From NCBI GenBank assembly GCA_937923735.1, contig CALDUJ010000182.1, forward strand, positions 1 through 33,689: DNA of 33,689 nucleotides, given 5' to 3'. Below, one piece after another: positions 20,612-22,727 of this stretch (position 1 is the stretch's first letter; every line of letters starts with the position of its first letter). The notes under the pieces were generated by a model that worked only from the letters and a program-made list of their open reading frames with translations, did not search any database and was not told the origin of the DNA. Position numbers and translations under genes: made by a program. Origin of the DNA: an uncultured Flavobacteriaceae bacterium. Lineage in GTDB: Bacteria > Bacteroidota > Bacteroidia > Flavobacteriales > Flavobacteriaceae.

Positions 20612-20638
20612 TAGTCATTCTGTTTTTATAAAAAAATC

Positions 20639-20660
20639 CGATAAAATGTATTTTTTATCG
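20639..20660. promoter_or_regulatory. Shared 22-bp element, copy 1 (before the first YhhN-like gene)
   Basis: Arms CGATAAAA and TTTTATCG form an 8-bp palindrome. This copy matches the element at 21905-21926 at 19 of 22 positions. It ends 20 bp before a TATATTAG -7-like box (20680-20687) and 47 bp before the GTG start, so it covers the expected -33 region, where an operator or activator site could act. Confidence 0.6.
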
Positions 20661-20707
20661 TTTAATTGTAATTTTTATTTATATTAGCCGTCCCAAACTA
20701 CAAATTT

Positions 20708-21436
20708 GTGAAGATAACCAAGACTTACATCTTGATGGCTATTATCATTCTGCTTACGGTTTTATTTATCGTCGGGCAGATAATGCAGTACGATGTTCTC
20801 TCTAATACAACTCGCTCATTAATATTGCCGTTGGCTACTACTTTCTACTTTTTAAAAGTAGAAAAGAGAAGTGTTTACTTTACTTTATTCTTAATTATAT
20901 TTAGCTTGTCTGAATTGATTGGGCTTCTTATTTATTCAGTGCCAAATAATTTTATTTTCTACATAGGTAATTTGCTTTGTATAGTTGGCTATATCTGTCT
21001 TATCATAGATATACTAACTCAAATAAAAGACTCCCCGGATTACAAAGGATTTTTCTTAAAATACACAATTCACATAGCTGTACTTGTTATGTTTGCTGTG
21101 TATTTGGTTATATTGTTGGGAGAGATAATGAGTCCACATCTAGATAGAGTGGAATATACAGTCTCAATGGTGTATTCTACAGCTATTATGGCTTTACTTA
21201 CTGTATCTTTACTTAACTTTATATGTAATGACAGCAAAAAAGCACTTATACTATTTTTGGCTTCTATGTGTATTGTTTTTTCTGAAATTGTACAAATAGC
21301 ATACTATTATCTATCTGAAACATATGGATTAAGTTTGATTTATTCCCTGTTATTGGTTATGGCTTTCTACCTATTCTATAAACAAGGGTTTTTAAAACAA
21401 GAGGCTAATAAAAATTTGAATCTTTTTAAATCTTAA
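20708..21436 (+). CDS. Polytopic membrane protein, YhhN/lysoplasmalogenase-like
   Basis: 242 residues, almost entirely hydrophobic, with about eight membrane segments. The start is GTG at 20708 (MKITKTYILMAIIILL); no closer ATG fits. The pattern 'TRSLILPLATTFYFLK' then a segment with Ser-Glu (SLSELIGLLIY) recalls the YhhN/TMEM86 layout (KPL.MPLL, then GD), whose members hydrolyse the vinyl-ether bond of lysoplasmalogens. The match is loose and the function is uncertain. It is a clear paralog of the 21978 gene, sharing the late segment ALLTVSLLNFI...IVFSEIVQ. Its 3' end overlaps doxX-like by 11 bp on the opposite strand. Confidence 0.65.
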   Translation: MKITKTYILMAIIILLTVLFIVGQIMQYDVLSNTTRSLILPLATTFYFLKVEKRSVYFTLFLIIFSLSELIGLLIYSVPNNFIFYIGNLLCIVGYICLIIDILTQIKDSPDYKGFFLKYTIHIAVLVMFAVYLVILLGEIMSPHLDRVEYTVSMVYSTAIMALLTVSLLNFICNDSKKALILFLASMCIVFSEIVQIAYYYLSETYGLSLIYSLLLVMAFYLFYKQGFLKQEANKNLNLFKS

Positions 21437-21815
21437 GCTTAGTGCCTAGGTAAGGTATATCTTTTCTGTAAATAAATAATAAAATAGCTGCCAAAACAAA
21501 AGTCACTACTGCGGTTATAAATAGTATACCTCCATCGCCTTTTACTTCTATGCCTAAATCTGTTAGGTGCATAAAAATAGCACCTCCAATAACCCCAAGA
21601 GTAAGTGTTGCTCCTAGCCATACTGTTCTAGGAATTAGTAATAATATACCACTTATTAACTCAACTATACCAATCCCTATTCGTCCTAGAGGCTCTAATC
21701 CAACTTGCTCAAAAATGTAAACACTATCTGGATGCGCAGTGAATTTAAAACGAAGTGTTTGTATTAAAATTAAGGCTACAATAATTCTTAGGGCTAGTAC
21801 GAGTTTTGATTTCAT
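21426..21815 (-). CDS. DoxX family membrane protein
   Basis: 129 residues with four membrane segments: LALRIIVALILIQTLRFKF, IGIGIVELISGILLLIP, LGATLTLGVIGGAIFMHL and GILFITAVVTFVLAAILLFIY. The order and the IxELxxGxLLLIP motif in helix 2 match the DoxX group. DoxX proteins have been linked to quinone-related redox and envelope stress, but the group is diverse and no function is assigned here. It lies on the minus strand between two paralogous plus-strand membrane genes and overlaps the first by 11 bp. Confidence 0.82.
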   Translation of the reverse strand: MKSKLVLALRIIVALILIQTLRFKFTAHPDSVYIFEQVGLEPLGRIGIGIVELISGILLLIPRTVWLGATLTLGVIGGAIFMHLTDLGIEVKGDGGILFITAVVTFVLAAILLFIYRKDIPYLGTKLKI

Positions 21816-21904
21816 TGTTAAATTTTTGGTTGTTAAGTTTAGACGAATTGCACATTGTATCTTACTAAGGTATTAAGTTCCTATCTCTAATTTAACATTT
21901 TCAT

Positions 21905-21926
21905 CGATTAAATACATTTTTTATCG
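21905..21926. promoter_or_regulatory. Shared 22-bp element, copy 2 (before the second YhhN-like gene)
   Basis: It differs from copy 1 (20639-20660) at three positions only: one in the left arm and two in the centre. Here the symmetry is extended, giving a 10-bp palindrome TTTCATCGAT / ATCGATGAAA (21899-21932). It ends 21 bp before a TATATTCG -7-like box (21947-21954) and 51 bp before the GTG start. Confidence 0.6.
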
Positions 21927-21977
21927 ATGAAATAAATATTATTTCATATATTCGAAAACCTACTTATAAATATTGTT

Positions 21978-22727
21978 GTGAAAAATTGGTTTAAATCTAC
22001 TACAAACAGAGCCATTGTAATTGTTCTGTCCGTGTTACTTATTTTTAATGGATACGCTTCATTTAATGAAAATGTTTTAATGCTTCAGGCGTCTAAGGCA
22101 TTGACTATTCCATTATTCTTTTCTCTTTATTTTATAAAGAACAGGTTTATCAATAACATATTCGTAGTCTTTTTGTTATTGACATTTGTTGGAGATTTGT
22201 TTTCTATGATGTCTGGGGATACTGGTCAACTAAAAGTAACCTCTGCTGCTTACTTTTGTTGTTATGCAACACTTATCCTCATTGGTTTTTTTAGGATTAA
22301 AAGATTTAAGTTTAAAGGGCTGATAGGAGGTTATCTTCTTGCTGTATTTTTGTTGAACGCCTATTTTATGTATTCCCTTTACGGAACGCTATCATACAGT
22401 ATTACAGATACAACCGAGTTGTTTTTTACTACTTTTCAAGTAATAGCCTTGTTGGTATTAGGTCTCGTTGCCTTTGCTGGCTATCTTAATGATGATGGGA
22501 GACAATCTATTGTTTTTTTAGTGATGAGTTTTTGCTTAATTTTTTCTCAGGTTTTAAACTTTGTTGAAACGTATTATGTAGTATACAATCAATTTGTGGT
22601 AATGGAGTGGGCGTCACATCTAGTAGGGCTTGTGTTGTTTTACAAATACCTTGAGGAAGATAACAGATTGAGCAAAAGAAAAGTTGTCCGAGACAGAATT
22701 TCTGTTTCAGAAAAAATGGCAGCTTAA
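21978..22727 (+). CDS. Polytopic membrane protein, YhhN/lysoplasmalogenase-like, paralog
   Basis: 249 residues with about eight membrane segments and a basic tail (LSKRKVVRDRISVSEKMAA). GTG start at 21978, like its paralog. It fits the YhhN pattern better: SKALTIPLFFSLYFIKN, then LLLTFVGDLFSMMSG, where the Gly-Asp of the second motif is retained. The late region (ALLVLGLVAFAGYLNDDGRQSIVFLVMSFCLIFSQVLNFVETYY) aligns with the 20708 product. Lysoplasmalogenase activity is possible but unproven. It converges on the 5'-nucleotidase-like gene with 2 bp between stop codons. Confidence 0.68.
   Translation: MKNWFKSTTNRAIVIVLSVLLIFNGYASFNENVLMLQASKALTIPLFFSLYFIKNRFINNIFVVFLLLTFVGDLFSMMSGDTGQLKVTSAAYFCCYATLILIGFFRIKRFKFKGLIGGYLLAVFLLNAYFMYSLYGTLSYSITDTTELFFTTFQVIALLVLGLVAFAGYLNDDGRQSIVFLVMSFCLIFSQVLNFVETYYVVYNQFVVMEWASHLVGLVLFYKYLEEDNRLSKRKVVRDRISVSEKMAA

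Follow-up and report, generated by a model that had tools for sequence, protein, structure and literature searches.

To our knowledge, few transcription-factor binding motifs have been described in Bacteroidota. The general consensus of LytTR boxes is [TA][AC][CA]GTTN[AG][TG]. LytTR operators consist of 9-bp direct repeats located 11-13 bp apart, just upstream of -35, and these repeats often depart from the consensus (PMC6193735). In the window, that is, the whole stretch of 33,689 nucleotides from an uncultured Flavobacteriaceae bacterium that was analysed, two similar elements precede two paralogous genes, here called P1 and P2 (Table 1). Judged from sequence comparison, with a probability of about 0.73, both elements would serve as operators for a single transcription factor, and this factor is most likely the orphan REC-LytTR response regulator whose gene lies beside rpsF. 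The corresponding regulon is probably an undescribed one of the LytTR type; a search of open-access papers found no published description of the motif or the regulon.

Two similar elements upstream of P1 and P2

The first element (CGATAAAATGTATTTTTTATCG, 20639-20660) and the second (CGATTAAATACATTTTTTATCG, 21905-21926) are identical at 19 of 22 bases, and both the coordinates and the agreement reported in an earlier note on this DNA are exact. The two elements lie approx. 20 bp 5' of TATATTNG. In particular, the -7 boxes TATATTAG and TATATTCG start 20 and 21 bp after the end of the respective element, and the gaps between element and GTG start are 47 and 51 bp, in agreement with the spacings of 20-21 bp and about 50 bp that had been noticed. 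In dinucleotide shuffles of the window, 0.05 matches with at most three mismatches are expected, whereas three are observed, one of them being the first element read on the reverse strand. Moreover, the surroundings of the two elements agree at only 15 of 50 bases upstream and 9 of 20 bases downstream. The similarity is thus greater than an old duplication would lead one to expect, as had been claimed, and selection on an operator common to P1 and P2 is supported.

A whole-genome search with the 22-bp pattern, proposed in the earlier note as a check, returned the two window elements as the only exact matches. The exact pattern CGATNAAA-N6-TTTNATCG occurs in four places in the genome, every one of them intergenic. 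All genome-wide counts come from pattern and model searches of a draft genome of 209 contigs that is 87% complete. The model, R1, is a sequence-only covariance model trained only on the P1 and P2 sites of other genomes; its matches, too, are few and mostly intergenic (see below).

Table 1. Features of the P1-P2 region of the window
Feature	Position	Strand	Remarks
Box A of the P1 operator, CGATAAAATGTA	20639..20650	+	R1 match 20638-20673, E 6e-6
Box B of the P1 operator, CGTTTAATTGTA	20659..20670	+	20 bp after box A; predicted at about -33 to -22
-7 box of P1, TATATTAG	20680..20687	+	TATATTTG in most orthologs; consensus TAnnTTTG at -12 to -5 (main text of PMC9723704)
P1, GTG start; predicted membrane protein, family undescribed	20708..21436	+	directly downstream of ligA
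DoxX-family membrane protein	21426..21815	-	between P1 and P2; P2 site in the region upstream of this divergent gene
Box A of the P2 operator, CGATTAAATACA	21905..21916	+	R1 match 21903-21939, E 1.9e-5
Box B of the P2 operator, CGATGAAATAAA	21925..21936	+	20 bp after box A
Weaker direct repeat at the P2 site, other strand, facing the DoxX gene	21895..21928	-	R1 match, E 0.0016
-7 box of P2, TATATTCG	21947..21954	+	
P2, paralog of P1, 249 aa, GTG start	21978..22727	+	low-confidence model: 8 helices

Direct-repeat architecture and its conservation

Alignment of the regions upstream of P1 and P2 orthologs, which had also been suggested in the earlier note, revealed that other genera keep the site at approximately the same distance from the -7 box. 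A reading of the element as a palindrome was rejected, since the ortholog alignment showed direct repeats. What is conserved is a pair of 12-bp boxes in direct repeat, each (T)CG(A/T)TNAAATG(C/T)A, with a period of 20-21 bp and a total length of 32-33 bp. The 22-bp unit is therefore real and conserved but incomplete, as it starts with box A, runs through the spacer, and stops two bases into box B. Likewise, the proposal that both genes share one repressor or activator site near -33 is supported by the conservation and by the few genome matches; however, the unit of this site is the longer direct repeat.

Across many genera, the tandem layout TCGWTNAAATGYA-(7/8 bp)-TCGWTNAAATGYA stands at a near-constant distance from the -7 box of P1 or P2. 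The pair is retained upstream of 20 of the 22 testable P1 and P2 orthologs from other genomes, although the proteins are mostly only 30-40% identical. In these orthologs, a box TCGATNAAATGYA is followed, 20 or 21 bp on, by a second box near TCGTTNAATTGTA; two P1 orthologs (L070 and L071) have no clear box pair. A -7 box resembling TATATTTG begins 21-23 bp after the start of box B in 17 of 22 pair-bearing sites, the window's own copies included. The aligned segments, which also served to train R1, were chosen by eye; the later regulator and genome tests used other loci.

A dyad with at least 7 of 8 pairs is present in only 11 of 22 sites, so the conserved dyad that would mark a terminator or hairpin is not found. 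The conserved ATGYA tail lies on one side only, and the bases before box A are not a complement of the box. Because half of the orthologs lack the dyad and the ATGYA tail is one-sided, the unit is best read as a direct repeat. If the transcription start is placed according to the mapped flavobacterial -7 box (-12 to -5; main text of PMC9723704), box A would span approx. -53 to -42 and box B approx. -33 to -22. With the start so placed, the repeats adjoin the -35/-33 region, as those of LytTR-type operators do, and their period, 20 or 21 bp at the P1 and P2 orthologs and at the LytTR loci, falls within the 20-22 bp or so of such operators. Neither window copy has a clear TTTG at -33. A direct repeat of this geometry suggests a binder of the LytTR family. 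When compared by eye with the general LytTR consensus, the box agrees only in its core, CGWTNA.

An orphan REC-LytTR protein as the candidate regulator

The candidate gene (G000:C143:6310-7002) lies outside the window and is divergent from rpsF. Its product combines a receiver domain (PF00072, E 3.3e-19) with a LytTR domain (PF04397, E 7e-19), both above the cut-off. The genome encodes six LytTR proteins, and the box pair is found upstream of this gene only (p 0.003, compared with 0.28-0.94 for the other five). The association extends to other species. A box matrix trained on P1 and P2 sites only was scored up to 220 bp upstream of the LytTR ortholog (p <=0.05) at 80 loci from public genomes, mostly of Flavobacteriaceae (Winogradskyella, Gelidibacter, Algibacter, Olleya, Flagellimonas, Maribacter, Flavobacterium, and others). 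A pair was detected in 34 of 36 close species, in which the ortholog is 89-96% identical to the query, and in 29 of 44 distant ones, i.e., in 63 of 80, whereas each of four control regions contained a pair in 3-7 of 80 (4-9%). In Flavobacterium, the pair has the opposite orientation; thus, the upstream array was not simply inherited as a block.

Alignment of the sequences upstream of the LytTR gene shows a conserved promoter-like block, and the boxes at this locus overlie the predicted -33 and -7 elements of the gene. Such a position suggests that the LytTR gene would be negatively autoregulated. The box array (G000:C143:7002-7142) separates the LytTR gene from the rpsF operon and could also affect ribosomal-protein expression.

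The motif and the regulator also tend to occur in the same genomes. Among 40 genomes, the motif is present in 18 of 19 that have the LytTR ortholog (59% identity or more) and in 2 of 21 that lack it (Fisher 6e-8), a comparison that is confounded by shared ancestry; within the family only, the corresponding counts are 18 of 19 and 0 of 6 (Fisher 4e-5). Shared ancestry weakens the co-occurrence but does not remove it. As exceptions, one genome (G012) has the ortholog and zero R1 matches, and two others (G038 and G039) have one match each without a close ortholog.

It is unlikely, though more probable than the other alternatives, that the conserved operator is bound by a different transcription factor (for example, another LytTR protein, or a CRP/FNR-like or MerR-like one) and that the LytTR gene is merely one of its targets. 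Autoregulation and co-occurrence are indirect evidence, the four zero-mismatch sites in the genome also resemble a dyad, and an array of three to four boxes adjoins the LytTR gene on contig C199. Moreover, with the genome 87% complete, its assembly may lack the gene of a further regulator. However, among the six LytTR genes, the array lies upstream of the C143 gene alone. The C199 LytTR protein was considered as the regulator and rejected, as it does not co-vary with the motif (p 0.3) and has no array upstream of its own gene. Dyad-binding factors are at odds with the loss of the dyad in half of the orthologs and with the absence of a box complement before box A, while spacings of 20-21 and approx. 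30 bp in combination with a single box orientation fit a direct-repeat binder. The orphan REC-LytTR protein is hence retained as the most likely binder.

Sites elsewhere in the genome

In the genome to which the window belongs, R1 gave 20 matches at E <=0.01, corresponding to approx. 16 distinct sites, namely both window sites and about 14 others. Almost every site is intergenic, with two or three inside a coding sequence or at its start. The R1 E-values are rough, and the best control is provided by genomes of the same family without the LytTR ortholog, in which there are zero matches. The sites are found at gldK (GldK confirmed, 600 bits), an ECF sigma-factor operon, rpsA, and the gene for a PAS histidine kinase, as well as at genes for secreted proteins, namely a type A-sorted protein (C31), a second such protein with a pectate-lyase-like region (C10), and a type B-sorted protein of 1657 aa (C199). 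Some targets recur in other genera, namely the ECF sigma operon in three genomes, an alpha/beta hydrolase gene also in three, and gldK in two. An R1 match (E <=10) within 400 bp upstream was counted by hand for 5 of 38 type A-sorted proteins, compared with 0.4 expected under a uniform distribution (p 8e-5); as p rises to 0.03 if matches favour intergenic DNA fourfold, this enrichment is suggestive only.

Several of these sites have an arrangement of their own. The box pair at gldK (G000:C87:2315-2352) lies approx. 90-130 bp upstream of the gene and is kept in another genus (L167 in G016), which suggests that the core operon of the type IX secretion system (T9SS) may be under direct control through this pair. 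The C199 array (G000:C199, approx. 21040-21128; L027 7040-7130) consists of three to four boxes with a period of 20 and is located between a TPR-histidine-kinase/LytTR pair and the 1657-aa type B-sorted T9SS adhesin gene, which is followed by PorP/SprF-like and OmpA-like genes. Three boxes with spacings of 31 and 29 bp (three helical turns) and a weaker R1 match are present upstream of the gene for a 690-aa TPR histidine kinase (G000:C149 9137-9209; L092 4138-4209). The rpsA site (C146:4973) also carries a box pair. Finally, good box pairs also stand at two places between convergent genes, at which one would not expect a promoter (G000:C55:44943-44986 and G000:C90:10026-10272); these count against the operator reading and perhaps belong to small RNAs or unannotated short genes.

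That the elements act in RNA, as hairpin terminators or structured leaders, is very improbable. Both window copies are foldable (z -2.7 and -5.8), ligA ends 27 bp before the P1 copy, and two groups of sites stand between convergent genes. However, the site is upstream of the predicted transcription start at both P1 and P2, no gene closely precedes the P2 copy on its strand, the boxes are kept but the dyad is not, and an Rfam search gave no match. Least probable of all is that the elements are mobile repeats or remnants of the old duplication without any function. P1 and P2 are indeed paralogs, and chance matches come easily in AT-rich DNA; but the non-coding flanks are dissimilar, the site is kept by distant orthologs, unrelated genes bear it at the same spacing, and the genomic copies inspected share no flanks of the kind expected of a mobile repeat.

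The P1 and P2 proteins

P1 and P2 had been described as clear but distant paralogs, which is borne out by BLASTP (22% identity, E 2e-7) and by profile-profile comparison (probability 98%, E 5.5e-14). The proteins gave no consistent Pfam or NCBIfam match and, in structure comparison, no useful PDB match (model pLDDT 59); according to this model of low confidence, they appear to be eight-helix membrane proteins. Membership in the YhhN family, suspected from sequence, was rejected, as profile comparison gave a probability of 1%.

The gene order ligA, P1, DoxX (reverse strand), P2 is partly kept in several genera, and at least 15 further genomes of the same family contain an ortholog of P1 or P2. 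Among 60 genomes searched, P1 and P2 are limited to those whose LytTR protein is at least 90% identical, aside from three weak P2-like matches (E 3e-5 to 2e-4), one of which is the P1 ortholog itself. The LytTR ortholog is present in many genomes without P1 and P2. The two proteins define a membrane-protein family that has no Pfam or NCBIfam model and that, in these 60 genomes, is essentially confined to the clade with a near-identical LytTR protein. As the weaker minus-strand repeat at the P2 site points toward the divergent DoxX gene, the latter may be co-regulated through this site.

Proposed mechanism

A dimer of the LytTR protein would grip two boxes that are two turns apart on the same side of the helix. 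At P1 and P2, the dimer would cover about -54 to -22, thereby replacing or masking a -33 element that has no clear TTTG, and both genes would be switched together upon phosphorylation of the receiver domain. Because P1 and P2 have no good -33 element, the regulator is slightly more likely to act at these promoters as a class-II-like activator than as a repressor. As gldK and several type IX-secreted proteins are among the putative targets, the site probably links the P1 and P2 membrane proteins to a cell-surface and secretion programme. A broader and rather doubtful idea is that the almost invariant orphan LytTR protein would be an undescribed, Flavobacteriaceae-wide master regulator of gldK and type IX-secreted surface proteins, the ECF sigma factor, and ribosomal-protein genes, and that P1 and P2, its membrane partners specific to one clade, would act on it by feedback. 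The analysis yields a precise and portable motif, names a candidate regulator, and lists putative targets, among them the T9SS core gene gldK and secreted proteins; as a result, the control of surface secretion in marine flavobacteria becomes directly testable.

Comparison with known systems

The -7 boxes of P1 and P2 fit the primary-sigma motif TAnnTTTG of Flavobacterium psychrophilum (PMC9723704). In contrast, none of the six sigma motifs described in the main text of that paper corresponds to the direct-repeat box, and this text mentions neither LytTR nor direct repeats.

The LytTR Regulatory Systems (LRS; PMC6193735) likewise combine membrane proteins with a LytTR regulator and have a direct repeat close to the promoter. 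Unlike in LRS, however, P1 and P2, located by ligA, are not in an operon with the regulator gene, located by rpsF; moreover, the regulator has a receiver domain and occurs in many genomes without P1 and P2.

The candidate is similar to AgrA, YpdB, and HdrR/BrsR (PMC4227749, PMC4847170, PMC6193735) in that it has a receiver and a LytTR domain, that tandem direct repeats approx. two helical turns apart lie beside the -35/-33 region, and that such repeats are also found upstream of the regulator's own gene. It differs from them in that the box TCGWTNAAATGYA, as judged by eye, departs from the general consensus outside its core and in that arrays of three to four boxes and spacings of approx. 30 bp occur. 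Box B overlaps -33, whereas the repeats in those systems end 4-11 bp upstream of -35. Finally, the regulator here is an orphan beside rpsF, with boxes that lie over its own predicted promoter.
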